Part shown: positions 44,663 to 60,500 of the stretch, piece after piece
Layout: the number at the start of each line of letters is the position of its first letter
Position numbering within the stretch: position 1 is the first letter of the stretch
Position numbers and translations under genes: made by a program
Assembly: GCA_010909725.1 (NCBI GenBank)
Contig: JAACMV010000008.1
Coordinates: forward strand, 1 to 64,000
DNA: 64,000 nucleotides
Source: Picochlorum sp. 'celeri'
Taxonomy: Eukaryota > Chlorophyta > Trebouxiophyceae
Direction: 5' to 3'
The notes under the pieces: generated by a model
Told to the model about the DNA's origin: nothing
Database searches by the model: none
Seen by the model: the letters and a program-made list of their open reading frames with translations, nothing else

Positions 44663-45733
44663 CTAATTTTTATTTGCCAACGAGTTCAGAGGGACAAAGA
44701 TGACATCAGACCAATCCCCTTTGGAATCCTGCTGCATTTTGACCAGGACTTCCTCAAAGCTACCCACATCTACCCTCGGGTACGTCTTTTTCTCTTCTTC
44801 CGACTGCTCCTTACGAAGCTTTCTTGTGTATTCATCCACCCGTTTCTTTGCCTCTGCCAGTGATTTCTCTGCCTTGCTCTTTGCCTTGGCATCCTTCTCT
44901 TGGCGCACCTGCTCCTCTAGCTCGCTCATCTCTGCCCTTGCTCTGTCCACCTTTTGCATCAAGTTTTTCAAGGAACTCGACAACTGATGCGAGTATGTCT
45001 CTTTGAGAGCCACATCCAGGTCGTCTTTCGAGAAGAAGAGAGGAGTGTATCGGGAGGCATCCCCCTTGACAGTCAGCCCCTCAGCCTGGAAGAGCGGGAC
45101 TCCAACAAAGCCTTCTTTGGGGATACCGGCAGATTTATATAGATCCAAGGCCTTCATCACCTGCTTGCTGTCCGGCATGAACCTAAATGACACATTTTCC
45201 GCCCCGCCCACGGAGAATTTCTTATTCTTGGCAGTGGTGAGTTCATACACTGCCTCCAGGGACGTGGCCAAGACCTGCGCGGTCTTGCCCAATTTAGGAT
45301 TCTCCTGCTTTATCGTCGCTTGAAACCCTTCAGCATCTTCTTTGCTAAAGAAAAGGAAGCTCATCTGACGACCAGAGTCGTCGTCACCGCTGACCAAAAT
45401 GAACTCCTTCTTACTGTTCACCACAGCGTACACGGGAACACCTGCCAACCTCGCACGAATCTCTGCTGGACTTGCTGAAATATCACCAACAACTGGGTTA
45501 TCCACCGCAGGGCTTCTCTTCCTCCCCACGTTCGCAGACAGGGATGCAAATGCAGGAACGGTCATGCCCTCATCTCCTGGCATCAGATGCTTGCCAAAGG
45601 TATGTAACGACTCTGTAGCACGCTGTACAATATTCTGGACCCCAACAAAGGCTACTTTGACGTTCTCACCAGCCTGTTCCAGGTGGTGGTGGACAGAGGA
45701 GTGCCACGATGGCCGTGGGTGAGCCTTCTCCAT
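44663..45733 (-). CDS. Tic22-like protein with a coiled-coil insert
   Basis: Tic22-family protein of the plastid intermembrane space or of related envelope or thylakoid-lumen chaperone function. Single exon, 356 aa. Tic22 landmarks: EIRARLAGVPVYAVVNSKKEFILVSG near 92-118, LFFSKEDAEGFQATI near 128, VSFRFMPDSKQVMKALDLY near 182, and the last strand and helix with GSFEEVLVKMQ...DWSDVIFVPLNS near the end. Between PLFFSKDDLDVAL (about 230) and DVGSFEEVL (about 322) lies an extra highly charged helix (EMSELEEQVRQEKDAKAKSK...), which is not usual for Tic22. The N-terminus has no obvious transit peptide. TTACA lies at 44652. Confidence 0.82.
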   Translation of the reverse strand: MEKAHPRPSWHSSVHHHLEQAGENVKVAFVGVQNIVQRATESLHTFGKHLMPGDEGMTVPAFASLSANVGRKRSPAVDNPVVGDISASPAEIRARLAGVPVYAVVNSKKEFILVSGDDDSGRQMSFLFFSKEDAEGFQATIKQENPKLGKTAQVLATSLEAVYELTTAKNKKFSVGGAENVSFRFMPDSKQVMKALDLYKSAGIPKEGFVGVPLFQAEGLTVKGDASRYTPLFFSKDDLDVALKETYSHQLSSSLKNLMQKVDRARAEMSELEEQVRQEKDAKAKSKAEKSLAEAKKRVDEYTRKLRKEQSEEEKKTYPRVDVGSFEEVLVKMQQDSKGDWSDVIFVPLNSLANKN

Positions 45734-45959
45734 TGCTATGTCAACTCTGTGGAAATAAATAATGACGGCTTGTCCCGTGCGAGCATGTGGATGGACGTGA
45801 ATTCATTGCAATGGCACCGTTTGTCACGTGGCCAACTAAATAAGGAACAACAACCGCTTTCATGGAGACCCGCCTATCTCTGCCTCATGCCATTTGTTTT
45901 GTAATAGCAATAGATATTACAATCAAGTGATTTAGAGTCCTGGAATCGGGAGAAAGAGA

Positions 45960-46677
45960 ATGGTTGCGGATCAACAACGACTCGGTGGTGGTTCTGAACG
46001 GAACAGCATTCTGCTCAAGGGGTCGACGAATACGGTGTCAGAATTCTTTCAATATGCTTTAAGTTCAGTTTTATACCAGCGTGGAGTGTATCCAGCGGAC
46101 AACTTCGAGCCAACAAAGAAGTATGGGATAACCGTTATGACTGTCAGGGACATGAAATTGCAGGTGTACCTCAAGGATGTTCTAGAGTACTTCACAAAGT
46201 GGTTGGAGACTGGCACTCTGCAGAAGGCTGTCTTGGTAATCTTGGGGGCAGCGAGTGGACAGGTGTTGGAGAGGTGGTCGTTTGATATTCAGACGGACAA
46301 GGGGGTGGTGACGGGAGAGACAGAGGCCACGGAAAAGGACGAGGGCCAGGTGATGCAAGAAGTCCAGGCAATCATTCGCCAGATAACTGCAAGCGTAACA
46401 TTTTTGCCGCTCCTGCAGGAGACGTGCTCGATAGATTTACTAGCGTACACTGATAAAGATTTGGCTGTTCCAAGTGAATGGTGCGTAGTCTCATACGAAT
46501 TAGATGATTGTATCTATGGCTGTTGTGTACTTTGGGTCAAAATGTATCGTACTTGCTCATGTCTGTAGGGAAGAGAGCGATCCTCGCATCATTGAGGGCG
46601 GAGCCAATGTTCAGCTCAGGTCTTTCAAGACATCTGTTCACAATGTAGAAGCCCTCGTATCATACAAGGCAGAATAA
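45960..46677 (+). CDS. MAD2: Spindle checkpoint protein MAD2
   Basis: HORMA-domain protein that senses unattached kinetochores and inhibits Cdc20-APC/C. Two exons, 45960-46480 and 46569-46677 (209 aa). The splice GAATG|GTGCGT to CTGTAG|GGAAG in phase 2 rebuilds VPSEWEESDPRIIEGGANVQLRSFKTSVHNVEALVSYK, the typical MAD2 C-terminus (safety belt). The N-terminus shows the usual LKGSTNTVSEFFQYALSSVLYQRGVYP and later SFDIQTD, QAIIRQITASVTFLPLLQE and YTDKDLAVP. Length fits the family (about 205). It converges on the next gene with 17 bases between stops. Confidence 0.95.
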
Positions 46678-46694
46678 AAAAAGCATCATGGTAT

Positions 46695-47288
46695 TTATGA
46701 ATATTCCTCTACGTCAATAGGAGTGTTATATAGTTCAAAATTACGGAGCATCCGCCGTTTCTTGGCCTTGGGGATGTCCACACTGGGAGGTGGGTTTTGT
46801 CTCTGCCTGCCCATCATGATATCCTGCCCGAGCACAATAAGAGGCTCTATATCACTGATTGATATTCCTTCATGGTCTATTTGCCTCCTTCTTGGAAGTA
46901 TACTCTCCGTGCGCGCAGTGTGTCTCGTGGTTTCCTTCCGAGGAGTACAGTCACCTTTGACGGTGGGTCCCCTTCGAAACAAACGCAGCCCTGGGCTGCT
47001 CTCGACTCTACTAGAGCCCTGTGTATCACGATGTGTCGAACATGAAGGATTAGAGTCTTCGTTGATGGTTCCGAATTCTATTCCCGCATCCAACTTTTTC
47101 CACAGGGCCTCTGAGACGGTTGTAGCAACCCCTTCTGGAACCGCACCACCATCCGAAACCCCCTTGCCCCGAATTGACACGCTCTCCCGTCTTACATCTT
47201 CTGCATTCACAGCAACGGATGCAAATTTGGCGTATTCTTCGTCATCATCTGAGGATGACGACGTTGCATCTGCATGGCTGGTCCCCAT
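46695..47288 (-). CDS. Hypothetical protein, possibly CUSTOS (C12orf43) family
   Basis: Single exon, 197 aa. It opens with an acidic Ser/Asp stretch followed by EEYAKFASVAVNAEDVRRES. Mid-protein there is LWKKLDAGIE, then SSPGLRLFRRGPTV, and a basic KAKKRRML near the end that could be a nuclear signal. The order (Ser/Asp run plus EE..A.VA..D, KKL..-LD, GLRLF) recalls the small CUSTOS family of nuclear-envelope/Wnt-linked proteins, but the match is short and from memory. An alternative is an unrelated intrinsically disordered nuclear protein. A 263-codon frame lies on the opposite strand over the same region; I prefer the minus frame for its composition and the convergent layout. Confidence 0.5.
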   Translation of the reverse strand: MGTSHADATSSSSDDDEEYAKFASVAVNAEDVRRESVSIRGKGVSDGGAVPEGVATTVSEALWKKLDAGIEFGTINEDSNPSCSTHRDTQGSSRVESSPGLRLFRRGPTVKGDCTPRKETTRHTARTESILPRRRQIDHEGISISDIEPLIVLGQDIMMGRQRQNPPPSVDIPKAKKRRMLRNFELYNTPIDVEEYS

Positions 47289-47928
47289 CGAGATATCTTC
47301 CGAGGAGAGATGCCCTTGCCGCTATCCAATTATTTATGATGCCAATATGGGCAGTGCGTTGTGTCATCAATCGGAAAAAGGGCATGCGTCTTGCCGAGAC
47401 TATTTTGAGATGCGGTCTTTGTGCCTATCAACAGATGTACTGGATGCCCCCACTAAGGAAAGCAAGATTCTAGCCAATTCTCGTTCTCCGTCTACAATGG
47501 ATTTCCGCCTCTGATATTGTAGATTTATACTTATATATATATAATCTATCTAATCTCAAAAAATCAAGTACAGAGATGCTCTTACGAGTAAGAAATCAGC
47601 AACCGCTTTTTCAGCACTGGCGAACCACCCCGTCATTTGGCTCGATCGATGCCTTCAGTGCTGAATTTGGGGTATTTGACGAGCAATACCGTCGCGCTCA
47701 GTCATTGATAAACCCCCTCCTTGTGCACATATTTATTATATCTATTGAACTTTCATAATTTTTGGTTTTGGGGACATTTCGCGACAAGCGATAATTTGGA
47801 CTTGGCGAACGCTGTCCAAGATGGGCCAGACCTTGCCTGGGCCACCCCTAGAAACCCAATGCACTGCTCGTGTAGTTGATTTTTGCGTTTACTATAACCA
47901 TATATAGGATCATAATTATCTCGAGAGC
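47289..47928. other. Intergenic region, likely left flank or end of the transposon
   Basis: Lies between the CUSTOS-like gene's start and the transposase stop. It contains a perfect 10-bp inverted repeat (47611-47620 with 47656-47665, arms TTCAGCACTG). It also contains a stretch that, read on the minus strand, has CCAAGTCCAAATTA and CCCCAAAACCAAAAATT, loosely resembling 53030-53080 on plus. These could be sub-terminal repeats of the element. I could not define a terminal inverted repeat or target-site duplication. Confidence 0.4.
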
Positions 47929-50900
47929 CTATATGGGCTTCTCTTTAAAGAGTTTGGAAAGGTCCATGTTTCTGAGGCTTCCCTTGTTGAGGACAAGGTA
48001 GGACTTGAATCTTGGCTTCTCTCCAAGCGACCCATGTATTGTCCTCATGTCAGGAGCTAAGAACGCCTGCTCTTTAATACACGATACATCAATTAGACGT
48101 TCGGTCGCGGGTGTCTGTGTGTGATAGAGAAGCACGTCTTGCAGCCCACACTGTTTCAGGTCTGGATCCAAGTCCTCTGTGGTGTACTCTGTCACTCTGA
48201 GAAGGATTCGTTCATCTAAGGGACCACGATGCATTTCTCTGCTCCTATCAGGTATAATGATGCGGTATATTGCCTGAACTTGTGCTAGCGTGGGCAGTCG
48301 CCCAGGTTGATCTTGTTGCAGTAGCAGGTAGCTGTTATCTGTTGCAACTTTCATCCGCTCCACATACGACTTGTGTTCGATCTCGACGCCGTGAAGAATT
48401 AACTTATCATATTCAAATATCTGAAACTGCATGAGTGCCAGTTGTTTGATAAGATGTGGTATCTGGGTTGTGCCACACTCTTCATATGCCTCTGCCACCA
48501 GGCATGTGTATTGAAGTTCAGCCCAATCATACTGACGCCCCAAGATATCTTCCATACTCTCGCTGGACACATAATATTCTTGTATAAGTCTTACAATACC
48601 GAGATCTTCATCCTGATTCAAGTTTATCTGCCTGCACTTTGAAGGAAGTACGAGGTCCTCCTGGACTGTTGGCATCACCTCTGAGAGTTCATGCTCATCC
48701 CTTCCTCTGTGGTTTTCCATGGCAGAAGCGATTAATCTCACAGCCATTTCAGTAGATAATCTTGAAGCCATAGATGCAACAGGCATGTTTTTTTTCTTAG
48801 CCATACTCTTCATGTCTTTGAACTTGCTCTCTAAGGGAAAGGACCACAGGTCAGGCAGAGGGCCATAGTTGAGCACTTGGCTTGGTAGGTGATATATGCT
48901 ATGCAAATGGAAGGGCATTTCTGTCTTTGGTAACTGACTTTCAAGCTCTAACATTATGTGATACATTCCCTGTTCGTCGAGTTCCTCTATCTCCTCCACA
49001 TTGATAACTGGTGAGCAAAGCTTTTTCAATGCGTAGAACAGTCCATCATAAGCCTTGACTACGGCGGGGTCAACTCCCCCAAAATACATTGCAGCGCACA
49101 TAATGCCGCTGATGGCAAAATCTTTATATTCAGATGCTTTAATTTTTGCTGCATTAGAGTCGTTTTCCTCCTCTCGCTTCTTGGATTGATTTGGTTTTCG
49201 AAACAATCTTGAGGGATCCCCATGAAGTCCAGATGGCTTGCAAATGAACGAAACAAAGTTCCTTGCTTGCGTTGAATTTTTCTCAGAGTAACGATTAGGA
49301 TCATCGCGTCTTGATTGGGAATCACGTGGTGCCAGTCTCATCACCCATTTTGGGAGGCCAGTCAGGTTCAAAAATTTCCTCAGTGTTTCAGTGTCAAATT
49401 TTCCTACCACGTTGCCCTCAGCCCTGCTAGCAGCATTTTGAATACCATGCATTGCGCAGAATAAAAAACCGTTGACCAAATCAAAATATGGCAAACTGCT
49501 AAATGCACATACGCCCCTGATCCCTTTTCGTTGCTGAGCAAAACCTGGAAACGCCTTGTTGTCCAAAGTAACCTTCCCTTTTTTCAACTCCTCTTCGACC
49601 CAAGACTGAGATGATCGCACCTCATCACTATTCCATAAGAATAAATTCATCTTGTCAGACTCTGTTGGTTCTGGCATGCTGCTCGCCTTGTATGCTATCC
49701 TTTGCATACCCTGTCCTTTGCCAATTTTGAAACTCTCTCCAAAGATTTTGCACATATGGCAAGGCCATTGACTTGGAGTCTCGTCATGCTTTGCTACCAA
49801 TCGCAATGCTCTTGTATCCTGTGCACTGCATAGGAGAAAAACCTTGGTTCTAATATGAGATTTCCTTGCTGCATCATATAGAGTTTCTCCTTCCCCACTG
49901 CAGATATCTTCAATGTCCTTCACAATCATACCCAGATACTGATCAATGCTCTCTGCCTCTTTTGGACCGTCTACTATCATCAATGGGTAGATGTTTCTAT
50001 ACTTTTTACCCAGCTCTGGAGGTAGATTGAGAATTCTCATCAAGACACACCAAATTGAATACGCTGATCGGTTGAATGGAGAAAACCCATCTGTGAATAA
50101 TTCAATCACAATAGGGATGTATTCGTCTGTCATTTCCATATCTAAACCTTTTTCGAGCCTCAATCGCTCTATAGCCGGACTCTGCCAGACAGAGGATAAC
50201 ATCTGATCAGAGCCCTGTCTTGGCAAACTTGGTCCATACCTGACACCTTGTGCAAACGTGGTATCTTGCATAGCACGCCTCAAAACGTCCATAATCTTCA
50301 ATTGCTTAATTGGAATAGACATATCTTTCCTACAAGATGGTTCAATACATGCGGATCCCCTGTTAGATGTTACTGGGTGGTGGTTGACACACGTGTAAAA
50401 TGTATGAAAAGGAGACCCAATTTTCCTCAGTAGTGCTTCCACCTTGTTATACGAGGGCGCATTTGAAAAGTAGCGAGAGATTATATTGAAATCTTGTCTA
50501 ATATTTTGAATCGCGTACTTATTTTCGAGCATGTTCAGCAGCAGTTCCACACAAAAGTCCCCAACAAATTTCTGTTCCACTTGGCCTTCAGGATATCTCT
50601 CCACAGGATCCAGCAACCAAAGGGCTAGATCTTCGGGCAGTGTGCATTCTTGGAGGGATATACGAGATTCTGATTCAATTATGAGTTCATTTAATTCGTT
50701 TGATTGCTGTGCTTCAATCTCATTGTCCATCTCCCCCTCAGTTTCACTGCCAACATCTTCTGCAGATGCATCTCCATCAGCCTCGTCACTTTCATAGGCA
50801 TGGTCGATCTCATCAAACCCTCCTCCATCATCACAGTTCATATCCACAAAACTCTCTTCTTGCACCACGTCAGGTTGAGCGACCACATGACTCTGTTGCA

Positions 50901-51243
50901 GCTGCTCCCCTTCAGAGTCCTTATCTATTGCTATTTCTCTCCAACTCCCATTCTCGACGGCTAAATTGAACTGATTCATTTTATCATTGAACTTGAGCAG
51001 TTTGGCCCTCTGACTTTCCTTCACTTTTTTAGTGCTTACTGTCCTTGAGATATTGTCCTTTAGTCTTTTCAGATGGTTTCTGACACTCTTGTAGGGAATA
51101 GGGGGCCGGCCCTCACACCGGTCACAAGGACAGTGAAAAGAATAGTCACATATTCTCTCTCTATTGTTCTTCAGAGAACGATCCGAGACTGGGAGTGAGA
51201 CCCCAGTATCAGTAGGAGTGGTTGAAGCGTCCTGGCAGGCCAT
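47929..51243 (-). mobile_element. CACTA/EnSpm-like transposase (TNP2-type, Transposase_21 plus DUF4218-like)
   Basis: Intact single-exon frame of 1104 aa from the ATG at 51243. A Cys/His-containing N-terminus (CPCDRCEGR) and acidic linker precede the TNP2 core. The core segment DGFSPFNRSAYSIWCVLM...LPPELGKKYRNI...IVDGPKEAESIDQYLGMIVKDI near 385-455 follows the family pattern, in which a transposase domain reads DG...PF...YS, then PP, then GP...IDxYL. HMCKIFGESFKIG and a later SQVLNYGPLPDLWSFPLESKFKDMK segment match the DUF4218-like part. No stop or frameshift is visible, so it may be recent or active. Its divergent neighbour could be the element's second gene. Confidence 0.75.
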
Positions 51244-51736
51244 GCTTTTCAAACTGGTTCAAATTTGCAAACCTAGCACGTGTACCATACATTGAACTTT
51301 CCGTCGAATATTTGTATTGGTAATTACCATATATCGATATTGTCCCCGATTTTGGAGACATCGGCTCAACCCGATCTACTTACTCAGGGAGCGACCGGAG
51401 TGCATCCCCGGAGGACTTGTCAAAATTTCGACGAGTCCAGAAGCAGATCTACCATCTGACAGAGTCCATATTGGACGGGTGTCAACCCCCACGGGCGACA
51501 TAAACTTACTTATTTATATCATATAAATATATTATTAACCGCGAAGGGCAGAAATACAGCACCTGGGGTAGGTTCTCAGGAGTAACCGAATGCGTTGTTG
51601 ACGTTGGACGTTGGGTATCCCCTGGTACGTATGCCACACAGATGTGGTGAAAAGCCTTGTAAAGTATATAAATATGACTATTCGCTCATTAATTACTTGC
51701 GTTGATCATTACCAGGTGCACGTGACAGCCGTTGTG
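51244..51736. other. Divergent spacer between transposase and partner gene
   Basis: About 490 bases with several TA-rich runs (51320-51340, 51505-51540). It presumably carries both promoters. ATTACCAG at 51708-51715 could be a splice acceptor if the partner gene has an upstream leader exon. Confidence 0.4.
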
Positions 51737-52968
51737 ATGTCCATCCCAACTGCCACGGATGGTAAGCAGGACACGTTGAGTCAGGAGGTTGAACTGGTAA
51801 AGTATCAGTGCAGATTAAAATATCTCGAGCTAATACAAGAGGGGAAAATAAACTTTGCTGACACTGCGCACATCGACCACTTGCCTCCCTTCCCTGCTGG
51901 TGCACCTTTGCCAGCTGAGGTACCTGTTGCTACAGGCAAAGATATTCAGATAGTCGCAGAACCTGCAGAGTCGGTTAGTCAGAATCAGCCATTCGAAGAA
52001 TGGCTTAAGGAGGTACGAATGTTCCTTTGCCAGCCTGCAGAATAGACGCCCAACTAAGGTTGCATACTATATTGCAGGATGAGATTGCCAAACGGGTCGT
52101 ACTTGCACTCGCAAAAAGCGGTAGATACAATAAGGACAATAGAAATATCGATTCAAGATGGAAAGAAGCGTTCATAGAGGGTTCGGAGAAGATATCAGGA
52201 AAGCCCAAGGTAACAACCAGTAGAGAGGCAGCGGCCATACAGAAGGTGAGGAAGAAATGCACTTCAAAAGGGTGGAATTTTGAACGGGTGTACAAAATAT
52301 TGGTTCCTCATGGAGATCTTGATCGACTTTGCGGCCCAGAAAAGGCAAAACATAGTAACCCAACCAAGGAACCATCAGAGCGACAGCACACACAGTTCCC
52401 AATTGCGACCAAGGTGAGACTGATTGGTAAGAGAAGGAACATTTCTCTCGCAGCATCAGAAGAATGTGACATATTATACTATATAGCGTTGGGTTCTGTG
52501 ATGTGTGAAGGCTCTAGAGGGAATTGCACTTGCCAGGATGGCCTCATGCCAATAATGGTGCAGGAAGTATTCCCACATGATGGGCCTCTTCAGAGGGTTG
52601 GGGGACAAACTCAGGAGGACCTGTCAACGAAAGTGATAGAAGTAAATAAACCTGTGAGATGGCATGAGTCACTGGTCCGTGTTGCTCCAGAAGAAAATAT
52701 CAGGGCAAAGAGCATAAAGAAAACCAGCAAGAGCAACAAGGAGAACACAGTTCGACAGAGCACACGCACTCGTCAGATATCTGGGATCTTCAGGGAGATT
52801 TTAAACATACGAGGGAAGAATAACAAGTACACCCCAGTAGCAGGCAAGCGAGGGCGCAAGAAAAATGGGGGAGCAAAAGGGCCAGTCATCCAGGCTTCCA
52901 AGCCTGAAACTGAAGTAGTAGAACGGCCAGGAAAACGGCGAACAACCAAAATTACCATCGGAAAGTAA
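51737..52968 (+). CDS. Unknown protein divergent from the transposase, possible DNA-binding partner
   Basis: Two exons, 51737-52012 and 52078-52968 (388 aa), joined AAGGAG|GTACGA to ATTGCAG|GATG in phase 0. I recognise no family. The N-terminal half has a short helical segment (QEVELVKYQCRLKYLELIQEGKI). Exon 2 opens with a conserved-looking region (DEIAKRVVLALAKSGRYNKDN...SRWKEAF...AIQKVRKKCTSKGWNFERVYKIL) that might be a small helical domain. The C-terminus is strongly basic with AT-hook-like KRGRKK and GKRRTTK. Divergent pairing with a CACTA-type transposase is typical of TNPA/TNPD-like two-gene elements, which is why a DNA-binding accessory role is suggested. The evidence is positional only. 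Confidence 0.6.
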
Positions 52969-53511
52969 TCAATATACTATATATATGTGTTAATGAATCC
53001 ATTGAAGCCTAGTATTGCGTAAACGAGCCGTGCCGAGTATCCAAAATTCCGGGTACCCAAACCAGAATTGCCGAAACAACAAGCCCCGTGTCTTTTGCTC
53101 GATTTCAGGGCTTCTCTGGGTGCCGGAACAGTATATAATTCCATTTCATACGCGCGGTAGGGCGCGTGAGGGGGGGAACATCGGTTAAATTCGATTTTGC
53201 TTTGGCATCCAGGGTGGCGAGGATCGCGCCTTCCTCAGTAGGGTATGGGAGATGTTCGACTCAACACATGGCTGTGTCTTTTTATGCTTGTATTCAGCCG
53301 GAAGAACGACCCATAGGGTCACAATCATCTATATATAATGATTGAATGAATGAATAAATGATTTTATATGCTGGAGAAGGTCCATAGGCTTGGAAGAGAG
53401 AAACAATAAGACGCTGTTACTCTAACTGCAACTCGGGTGGTGACGTTGTGGCTTTTTTACCGATAGATAGGGGCGATTTATGTCAACATAGAATTACATA
53501 ATACCTGATAG
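52969..53511. other. Intergenic region, likely right flank of the transposon plus FUSED promoter
   Basis: Holds a stretch at 53030-53090 with GCCGAGTATCCAAAATT and GTACCCAAACCAGAATT, which loosely mirrors the left flank in reverse. A short TGAATGAATGAATAAATG repeat near 53343-53360 follows, then the leader of the FUSED kinase gene. The element boundary is not resolved. No other gene is seen. Confidence 0.4.
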
Positions 53512-57638: not shown

Positions 57639-60500
57639 TTATGTAAAATAAAATGGTTTCACATCGCCCACGCCAAATTTTTCTCCACAGCCAGGGCACT
57701 TTCTGTGCCTGCTGGACAAGTTGACATCAATGCATGCAGAACAGAACAAATGATTGCATTTGGTGATGATACGATCTTTCAAACGTGTCGAGCAGACACT
57801 GCAATTAACCATCTTTCTCAGTACCTCCCTCTCCGCTTCTTCGCCCGCTTGTAGTTTCAGGTCTTTTCTACCTGACAGAATCCTCTCTGCCCTATCAGCT
57901 CTTGTTTTCTCAGACTTCAATGCTGCCAAATGCTTTGCTTTGTCAGCTTCTATCATCTCGATATCTTTCTTTGCGTTCGATAATTCGGATCTTAATGCAT
58001 CCATGGAAATTCTCAAAGCTTTGGCCTCGCTCTGTAAAGACTCTATTTGCTCCTTCGAGTGCTGCACATCCGTCTTGTAGACATCTCGCTCTTTAGATAA
58101 TCGATCAAACCTTTCTTCTATTTCTTTCGCTCTTTCTTCCGCATCTTGTGCTTTTTGTTCCATAGACTTCATCATTCTTTGCGCCATATCCCTGTCCTCC
58201 TCCATGATTGTTTTGTCTCTAGCTGCAGCAGCCGCTTCACTCAGAAGTCTGGCATTGTCCTCATCTCTCTTGGACATGGCAGACAGCAGTTTTGTATTTT
58301 GATCTCGCGAAGCTTCATAAGCCTCACTGACACTATCCATTTCCTTCCAAAACGTATCTGCCTCGATCATCAAATTTGCCTTCTCAGAACGGACCTTTTC
58401 AACCTCTGCAAGCAAGCCTGCCTGCTTTCCCTTGATGCCCTCGAGCTCATTCCGAAGCTCATTGATCTCTTGAGTCATCTCTCTTTCTCTCTCTGAACGC
58501 GACTCTTTCATCGCTGCTGTGACCCGATTTTCCAAAGACGACATCTGCGTTTTCAGGTACTCGTGTATGGCATCCCTGATGCTAGCCTCCATTGTCTCAT
58601 GTTTTCCCAGATACTCCTGGGACAATTCCAGGAAGCAGCGGAGCTCTTCATTGACCTTTGTTTGATCCACATACTTTTGAATCCAATCGTTGAGTTTCAC
58701 CATCGAAACGCTCACCTGCTTATTCATGTCAACAACCCGGGATCTATACTCTGCAATCTCCACCTCATGGGCAGACTTGAGCTTGTCTGCTTCCTCCACA
58801 ACCTCGGCAGCCTTTTGGTGCTTTGAAACCGCATCTTTCAGCATCTTCATCTCTGTTTCCATTCCCTGCATTTGTTGAAGCAACTCATCTCGAGTCTGAG
58901 AGGAATCATTGTGCTTGCATTCCTGCAACTGTCGTTCAGCCTCATTCCGCTCTGTTCTGAGGCGCTTCACCTGTGCCTCCAGCTCCGATATTGCATGTTC
59001 CAGCCTGGATTCACGTCTGAGAGCTCTTTGACCTTTCTCAAGATCCCGCACTGCATCCCGCAACTTGGAATTCAGGCGATCTTGCTCTCGATAGGAATCT
59101 TTCAATTTTTGCCTCACCCTTTCCACATCTTCAGTCAGCAGGTCCAGTTTTTCTTGGCGCTGCGCGACCTCTATCTTTGTATTCTCGGACACTGCGTCCA
59201 TCTCACGCCTCAGCGTGTATAATTCACTGCAAGAACAAGACGAACGACATGATGAGACGACGCGCCGCACAACCACCCATGGATGGAACCAAGCAAAAAT
59301 TCTACATCGGCACTATGCCGCCAAGGCGCCCAGATGTCATCTGGAGGTCGCGGGTTCGATCCCCGCAGGCGATGGCGAAATTCCGCATTTAGGACAGTAA
59401 AATCGTCCTAGATTCCGGTTTCTAGACTCCCGTGACAGGGAGGGTCATATAGTCTGACCTCTTTCATAGAGGTACTATGCGAGAACGAGTTCGTCTCGTT
59501 CTGTCGCCTTAGCGCAGTGGATTAGCGCGCCAGACTTCGGCACTACTTTTTAGACATTTTGCAAGAAACACATACCTCTCCAAACGAGCAATGTCTCCAT
59601 CCCTCTTCTCCACCTCTTTCTTGAGAGCCTCCACCTGAGGTGCAGCCTCATCCTTTTGGTCCAACACTAATTTCTGCTCAGACCCATTCCGAGACACCCC
59701 TTTGCTCACCTCTGGGGCCTCTTCCGACCGAGACACGCCCACATCCCCTCCACCCCTGTCGACACTCTTCTCCATCATGAGCTTGCGATGCAGCACTTGT
59801 ATCTCTGCTTCCTTATCAGCAATATCTGCCTCCAGCTGCCTGATCGCTATCGAGTCCGACAGGGAATCCTTCACCAATTTTCCATTCTCAGACTTTAATA
59901 TATTCACAAGAGCTGCCAGCTTGGACTCTTCAAAGCCAGGAAGGCTGCCTCCACCATTCCCTGCTCCTTTCATTTCCTCTATAGCATTCAAAATGGACGA
60001 AGCCACGGCCATTGTGTCCTTCATTTTATTTCGAAGCGCCTTCTCCGTCTCAGATAAATCATCTGCCAGGTTCTTGGCCGACTTGGCCGCCACAGGATCG
60101 TCTGGCAAGTACCTAGAAAGGAGATGGGCCAGGAAAGGATTCGTCTCCTCCAGAAGAGCTTTCGCAGAAGACGCATCCAACCCAGCGGGTGCAACCTCGG
60201 CACTCTCATTGACTCTGAATAAACATATGTAAACAATGAAGGAAGAATCAGCAAGAAGACACCATAACAGACGGCCACGTACTTGAATTGCAAAAAGCCA
60301 AGCGATGAGTTCAACTCGTCCCATACAGACGTCAGACAAGCAGCTGTATCCTTCCATTTTATTTCTTCGTTTTCTAAATTATGCAGTCTGTCCTTCAAAT
60401 CATTGATTTCCTTTCGCTGCGTTGCCACTTGAGCACTCAGTTTCGTATTCTTGTCCAGAAGCATTTGTTTGCCACCAATAGGTGGCTGAGGCTGGGGCAT
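57639..60500 (-). CDS. E3 ubiquitin ligase BRE1 / HUB-like
   Basis: RING-type ligase predicted to monoubiquitinate histone H2B. Three exons: 60500-60283, 60214-59576 and 59226-57639 (814 aa). The splices TTCAA|GTACGT...TTCAG|AGTC and GAGAG|GTATGT...TTGCAG|TGAA rebuild LGFLQFKVNESAE and DIARLESELYTLRRE in phase. Almost the whole protein is coiled coil. The C-terminal RING (CSVCSTRLKDRIITKC-NHLFCSAC-CPGC) has the C3HC4 pattern of BRE1, with the usual ...VKPFYFT-like end. Intron 2 (59227-59575, 349 nt) houses a permuted tRNA gene on the opposite strand. The family also contains other coiled-coil RING proteins, but the RING and tail favour BRE1. Confidence 0.87.
59304..59338 (+). other. Leader of the permuted tRNA, relic of anticodon loop plus intron
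   Basis: Positions 59304-59315 (ACATCGGCACTA) match 59534-59545 (ACTTCGGCACTA) at 11 of 12 bases. The second site is the end of the tRNA 5' half plus its trailer. The leader therefore appears to retain anticodon-loop bases 34-37 (TCGG), then a 28-nt remnant (59311-59338) leading straight into A38 of the 3' half. The leader also contains a perfect CGGCA-CTA-TGCCG hairpin (59308-59320). Confidence 0.7.
59339..59540 (+). tRNA. Circularly permuted tRNA-Arg(UCG)
   Basis: The 3' half comes first: 59339-59374, comprising A38, anticodon stem 3' strand TCTGG, variable loop AGGTC, T-arm GCGGG-TTCGATC-CCCGC, acceptor 3' strand AGGCGAT and discriminator G. The 5' half follows at 59503-59540: acceptor GTCGCCT, TA, D-arm GCGC-AGTGGATTA-GCGC, G26, anticodon stem CCAGA and loop CTTCGG. 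Reordered, it is a 74-nt cloverleaf. The acceptor has 7 pairs (one G-U), and the D, anticodon and T stems are perfect. T33, G18G19, TTC and A58 are in place, and the anticodon is TCG (Arg) with purine 37. B-box (GGTTCGATCCC) precedes A-box (TAGCGCAGTGG). The split is at the canonical intron site 37/38. It lies antisense in BRE1 intron 2. Maturation would need joining at 37/38 and RNase P/Z cuts at the acceptor stem. Confidence 0.93.
59375..59502 (+). other. Intervening sequence of the permuted tRNA, multi-hairpin
   Basis: The 128-nt spacer between the acceptor 3' end and the acceptor 5' end folds by eye into consecutive stems. These are AGGAC/GTCCT (59391-59409), AGA/TCT (59410-59423), CTCCC/GGGAG (59427-59442), and ATAGT-bulge-ACCTC with GAGGT-ACTAT (59449-59478). 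The last is AGAACGAG/CTCGTTCT (59482-59502), which ends exactly at the first base of the mature tRNA. It would be released by RNase P and RNase Z cleavage. Confidence 0.7.
59547..59551 (+). terminator. Pol III T5 terminator of the permuted tRNA
   Basis: A run of five T begins seven bases after the last base of the 5' half (G59540). This position and strand are as expected for RNA polymerase III, and support transcription of the 3'-half, spacer, 5'-half order from the plus strand. Confidence 0.8.

Follow-up and report, generated by a model that had tools for sequence, protein, structure and literature searches.

The window analysed here, the first 64,000 nucleotides of contig JAACMV010000008.1 (C8) of the green alga Picochlorum sp. 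'celeri', carries two short sequences that resemble the halves of one tRNA in reversed order. Do they constitute a single gene, how would such a gene be transcribed and processed, and from what could it have arisen?

Identification of a permuted tRNA-Arg(UCG) gene

The features of the locus are listed below with their positions in the window.

59295..59302, + strand: AAAAATTC, upstream element common to other tRNA genes
59307..59315, + strand: TCGGCACTA, upstream copy of a 9-nt junction-spanning repeat
59311..59338, + strand: leader, perhaps left over from an ancestral intron of 28 nt (putative)
59339..59374, + strand: 3′ half of tRNA-Arg(UCG), positions 38-73; the same in three of four genomic copies, with a G insertion in the fourth
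59375..59502, + strand: intervening sequence, 128 nt, four predicted hairpins, without any run of four T
59503..59540, + strand: 5′ half, positions 1-37, anticodon TCG; the same in all four copies
59537..59545, + strand: TCGGCACTA, second copy of the repeat (last 4 nt of the 5′ half and first 5 nt of the trailer)
59541..59551, + strand: trailer CACTAC followed by T5, judged from sequence a probable RNA polymerase III terminator

The 3′ half lies upstream of the 5′ half on the same strand, and the ordinary 5′-before-3′ order is not found. As encoded, the halves and the intervening sequence occupy 202 bases (59339-59540). When the halves are reordered, 59503-59540 followed by 59339-59374, they give the complete 74-nt cloverleaf of tRNA-Arg(UCG) proposed in the initial annotation, and ARAGORN recognises it as such. 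The split position put forward there, 37/38, is borne out by the extent of the two halves. The reordered molecule has a 7-bp acceptor stem with one G-U pair (G1-U72), a 4-bp D stem, anticodon and T stems of 5 bp each, a variable loop of 5 nt, the anticodon TCG and a discriminator G.

A standard search had been expected to miss the gene as encoded, and it does: neither ARAGORN nor Rfam at its gathering threshold reports a tRNA in the window. ARAGORN likewise finds none there when introns of up to 3000 bases are allowed. A permuted-cloverleaf scanner, which demands that every stem be full and that U8, U33 and TTCRA be present, returned exactly one site, Arg(UCG), on both strands of the 64 kb; 100 dinucleotide shuffles, scanned on a single strand, yielded no site. 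The locus scored 68.6 bits (E 1.3e-20) with a permuted-tRNA covariance model, the reordered gene being itself one of the 18 training rows. The claim that neither half alone is a tRNA holds at search thresholds, but below them Rfam has a tRNA match of 14.8 bits (E 3) across the leader and the 3′ half. The T5 reported after the 5′ half is present, but is placed at 59547-59551, six bases beyond it. No other Rfam match rises above threshold over the locus, intervening sequence included.

These sequence tests support the reading of the locus as a circularly permuted tRNA gene of type II (37/38). It is very probably a nuclear trebouxiophyte tRNA gene, permuted at 37/38 and processed via a circular intermediate, much like those of Cyanidioschyzon and prasinophytes.

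Genomic context and copies

The Arg(UCG) gene runs antisense to a RING protein gene, whose predicted intron encloses it; the parts of this host gene are listed below.

57639..59226, − strand: downstream exon, encoding a coiled coil and then a C-terminal RING finger (Pfam zf-C3HC4, E 2.2e-8)
59227..59575, − strand: predicted intron of 349 nt (GTATGT...TTGCAG) enclosing the whole tRNA gene; the joined frame is open to the final stop
59576..60185 at least, − strand: upstream exon

The host protein may be BRE1-like. Its homologues (four proteins) cover 70-72% of the query, approximately the length of the downstream exon, and therefore say nothing about the intron. Viral contigs were scanned for the host gene as well, and no relative came up.

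The genome comprises 30 contigs with 27,412,692 bases in all, and the positions of their matches pair most of them as haplotypes. The permuted Arg(UCG) locus is present four times: at C8:59225 (in the window), at C8:537448, and as one allele of each on C17. The two loci are 99% alike, stand in opposite orientation and each occur on two haplotypes. Both, together with the RING protein gene, are held in an inverted segmental duplication of about 14.6 kb, which consists of the following blocks.

45650-47446 of the window: 96.8% identity; partner within C8:531032-545573
53245-66004 in the same numbering: 99.0% identity; partner within C8:531032-545573

Neither the C17 allele nor the duplicated copy has the 5.8-kb insertion found at 47447-53244. 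That insertion starts near CCCCACTAAGG, ends near CCTCAGTAGGG and encodes a tnp2-type transposase (Transposase_21); we take this heterozygous insertion to be a CACTA-like DNA transposon.

The mature halves are alike in all four copies except for one G insertion in C17:55850, so their conservation is uninformative. In that copy, a stretch of 100 bases contains three inserted G residues, possibly through errors of polishing. Could the halves themselves have been swapped by assembly or polishing? The P. celeri assembly was polished with long reads only, according to excerpts of PMC7225527, and G-run insertions are seen in this one copy. However, the halves have one order in two oppositely oriented loci on two haplotypes, which speaks strongly against assembly error, and ten other genes have a like architecture. 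An artefact of this kind is thus extremely improbable.

We also asked whether the genome has another tRNA-Arg(UCG), a check that the initial annotation had called for. With the 74-nt mature sequence as query and E up to 0.001, all eight matches in the genome were single halves of the four permuted copies, and no intact near-identical gene was found; the search bears on near-identical genes, a divergent intact Arg(UCG) being outside its reach. The same matches bear on the idea of a split gene, in which each half would belong to a different intron-containing tRNA gene of the ordinary kind, with its partner half farther away. The leader does resemble an exon end followed by an intron. However, no further half exists in the genome at this threshold, all eight matches being accounted for, and the intron-tolerant ARAGORN search of the window was empty; we find a split gene scarcely credible.

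Other permuted tRNA genes in the genome

Ten more 37/38-permuted tRNA genes were identified in one haplotype (L085, L109, L078, L107, L076, L132, L111, L066, L130 and L071). They specify Arg(UCU), Ala(CGC), Ala(UGC), Cys(GCA), Gly(GCC), Leu(UAA), Leu(CAG), Leu(AAG), Ser(GCU) and Ser(AGA). Each haplotype therefore has at least 12 permuted loci with 11 distinct anticodons, a lower bound, as one B-box pattern and only the 37/38 split point were used. This pattern, GGTTCRANYCC, is matched 187 times across the diploid genome, and its reversal 157 times. From 100 listed places, 76 were scored; the other 24 were 16 intact tRNA genes, the two Arg(UCG) loci and six places on C16, the second haplotype of C10. 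Places beyond the 100 lie on contigs taken as the other haplotype. The permuted covariance model placed 10 of the 76 at E < 1e-7, and the next best (E 4e-4) is an ordinary intron-containing tRNA.

Once reordered, all 11 permuted genes, Arg(UCG) included, receive the expected tRNA identity from ARAGORN. In their encoded order, ten give no call and Gly(GCC) is miscalled. The acceptor stem pairs 7/7 in every one of the 11, the 5′ start having been picked for best pairing. In the three Leu genes and Ser(AGA) the start of the 3′ half was shifted by hand to fit the anticodon stem, and the full stems there are not independent evidence. TTTT is absent from all 11 intervening sequences, and a run of four or more T starts within 16 nt past the 5′ half in nine of the genes.

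For each of the ten sister genes, the partner contig has a B-box where an allele might plausibly lie, as judged from positions and, for Cys, confirmed by sequence. All four tRNA-Cys matches are halves of the permuted gene, on two haplotypes, and no other tRNA-Cys was found among the 63 of 866 candidates scored in the tRNA family search; a diverged intact tRNA-Cys could lie among the rest. Since the only tRNA-Cys matches found are permuted, a pathway that processes permuted tRNAs is probably needed. Moreover, the trailers of the two permuted Ala genes are alike in 52 of 62 aligned columns, and two permuted Leu genes have their entire 3′ half in common (42/42). Therefore, permuted genes have probably been duplicated as permuted genes.

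Predicted transcription and processing

The motif AAATTC occurs within 70 nt upstream of 6 of the 11 permuted genes and of 10 of the 22 normal-order tRNA genes called by ARAGORN (a few of these calls are doubtful), against a background of 2.7% in 20,000 random 70-nt pieces of the window. The exact motif is missing upstream of the other five permuted genes. This distribution makes the upstream AAATTC a putative promoter element. RNA polymerase III would start downstream of it, by our prediction some 10-20 nt further on, near 59312-59323, and would stop at T5, and the transcript would run in the order leader, 3′ half, intervening sequence, 5′ half, trailer. A second AAATTC is located at 59378-59383, in the intervening sequence directly past the 3′ half; it is possibly a second start or a chance occurrence. 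A Tau95 match is present in this genome and in none of 14 control genomes. The match to the TFIIIC B-block domain is weaker evidence, since 4 of the 14 controls, two of them bacteria, match as well.

In the precursor the anticodon stem would form between the outer edges of the halves. Cuts after G37 and before A38 would be made by the tRNA splicing endonuclease, and a ligase would join the ends into a circle. RNase P and tRNase Z would then excise the 128-nt intervening sequence, and CCA would be added. We follow here the route described in the review PMC3978253, of which we cite excerpts throughout: an endonuclease and a ligase act at 37/38, a circle results, and RNase P and tRNase Z process it. 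The tRNAs of the ten sister genes are most likely made through such circles too. Splicing endonuclease family matches are present at nine places in the Picochlorum genome. Identically scoring matches are found at seven places, on C9, C12 and C26 at 1564-1779 and on C10, C16, C21 and C25; the position common to C9, C12 and C26 is near the contig starts, and the matches are possibly subtelomeric copies.

In 10 of the 11 permuted genes base 32 could form an A-I pair with base -3 of the leader; Ser(GCU) is the exception, and 6 of the 16 base combinations would pass this test. Of the splicing motif expected at the junction, a bulge-helix-bulge, Arg(UCG) could form the anticodon stem and the A-I pair, the latter between the leader G at 59336 and C32 (59535). 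Further pairing between its leader and trailer, in addition to the A-I pair, does not exceed chance (p 0.32), and a longer leader-trailer helix exceeds shuffles in none of the 11 permuted genes (p 0.10-0.92). The lowest-energy fold of 59315-59548 has -92.3 kcal/mol, and in it a leader hairpin (CCAGAT/ATCTGG) displaces the anticodon stem. With the acceptor and anticodon stems forced the value is -85.7, i.e. 6.6 kcal/mol worse, and forcing also the A-I pair and a 5-bp leader-trailer helix gives -79.7, a further 6.0 kcal/mol. The unmodified 74-nt mature sequence and the circle fold as non-cloverleaves too, and the precursor fold test therefore discriminates little.

The competing leader hairpin is compatible with a silent relic, a pair of tRNA pseudogenes that stems from a rearrangement and goes unprocessed. 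So is the possibility that CGA codons are covered by a tRNA-Arg(ACG), which seems present in ordinary order (L106; read by eye, ARAGORN having called Ser). By the wobble rules tRNA-Arg(ACG) could read CGA, and tRNA-Arg(UCG) may thus be dispensable. Against a relic stand the full stems, the terminator, the upstream element and the A-I pair, and we consider it quite unlikely.

The leader repeat, the intervening sequence and the origin of the gene

The two copies of the 9-nt repeat place the end of the 5′ half, with the adjoining trailer, a second time upstream of the 3′ half. Among 3000 dinucleotide shuffles, a single one contained a junction-spanning repeat of this length (p 0.0003); the test followed the observation, and over 22 tests the value becomes about 0.007. 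In the other ten permuted genes the junction repeat is at most 5 nt long (lowest p 0.098). If the repeat is not required to span the junction, p is 0.008, and the leader of another gene matches the 5′-half/trailer region over 8 nt. The mirrored repeat downstream is absent from 9 of the 11 genes and is 4-5 nt long in two (p 0.25 and 0.35).

The upstream sequence can be read as a TCGG exon end, 59311-59338 and exon 2, in which case the leader is perhaps a 28-nt intron. Introns of 15-39 nt at 37/38 are found in 8 of the 18 parsed intact tRNA sequences of this genome; two of the eight probably represent alleles, and in the parse of Leu(CAA) only 3/5 stem pairs are formed. We judge the chances about even that Arg(UCG) arose from an intron-containing tRNA-Arg(UCG) and that its leader still holds the old intron. 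Two routes could have led to the permutation, either a tandem duplication whose outer halves were lost or the insertion of a circular copy back into the genome; the repeat would fit both.

Decayed halves were also considered. The 14.8-bit Rfam match and inspection by eye prompted a comparison of the Arg(UCG) leader with a decayed 5′ half, which did not exceed chance (p 0.35). In all 11 genes, the leaders were searched for decayed 5′ halves and the downstream sequences for decayed 3′ halves (22 tests; lowest p 0.098), and both were rejected.

The Arg(UCG) intervening sequence has a predicted folding energy of -46.3 kcal/mol (z -4.7), and none of 200 shuffles was as stable; a second run gave z -4.0. 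The other ten intervening sequences measure 11-58 nt, with z between -1.48 and 0.14. The 128-nt sequence may simply hold the ends together. A bolder proposal would make Arg(UCG) a young permutation whose 5′ flank keeps the end of exon 1 and all 28 nt of the intron. The alga, with at least 11 permuted tRNAs, seems to have kept TFIIIC, and the 128-nt intervening sequence might be a functional RNA set free from the circle; we offer this proposal tentatively and lean slightly against it. The leader remnant, if real, is direct sequence evidence on the open question of how permuted tRNAs originate.

Comparison with known permuted tRNA genes

Arg(UCG) is a real permuted gene, as far as its sequence tells, whose expression and processing we infer, and the class itself is already known, as the initial annotation had stated: permuted tRNAs have been described from Cyanidioschyzon and prasinophytes (PMC3978253) and from chlorarachniophyte nucleomorphs too (PMC4494063, in excerpt). 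In the 2014 review the tally stood at 34 permuted tRNA genes, from six algae and one archaeon (PMC3978253). In the open-access literature, to which our search was confined (subscription papers being outside its scope), no report of a permuted tRNA in Picochlorum was found. The available text of the Picochlorum SENEW3 genome paper mentions tRNAs and not permuted ones (PMC11092101), and in that of PMC13353863 Picochlorum and permuted tRNA are named only in the references. Permuted tRNAs were reported in 2025 from Auxenochlorella UTEX 250-A, a diploid trebouxiophyte of the same algal class and another genus, for which excerpts describe the tRNAscan-SE set as incomplete (PMC12636532).

The type II genes of Ostreococcus, Micromonas, the Bigelowiella nucleomorph and Cyanidioschyzon merolae have the 3′ half first and the junction at 37/38, as here (PMC3978253). 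Many known type II genes have a TATA-like or AT-rich sequence upstream (PMC3978253), where 6 of the 11 Picochlorum genes have AAATTC. In C. merolae a T-run follows the 5′ half and no termination signal separates the halves (PMC3978253), as in Arg(UCG). TFC1 and TFC3 homologues were not identified in C. merolae, according to the same excerpts (PMC3978253), whereas this genome has the Tau95 match and the less telling B-block match. In the tandem-duplication model, the outer exons of two intron-containing copies are lost (PMC3978253); here, in contrast, the leader side alone seems to preserve the end of an exon 1 together with a stretch of intron size. Table 1 of the review has no Arg(UCG) and a longest intervening sequence of 74 (PMC3978253), against 128 nt here, strongly folded. 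Arg(UCG) is peculiar in this long, strongly folded intervening sequence and in the 9-nt repeat across its splice junction.

Cas9 methods are reported for P. celeri, so that whether permutation matters, and how it arose, can be tested. With at least 12 permuted loci per haplotype, this one diploid green alga of biotechnological interest stands beside C. merolae, for which Table 1 of PMC3978253 gives 11 permuted tRNA genes.
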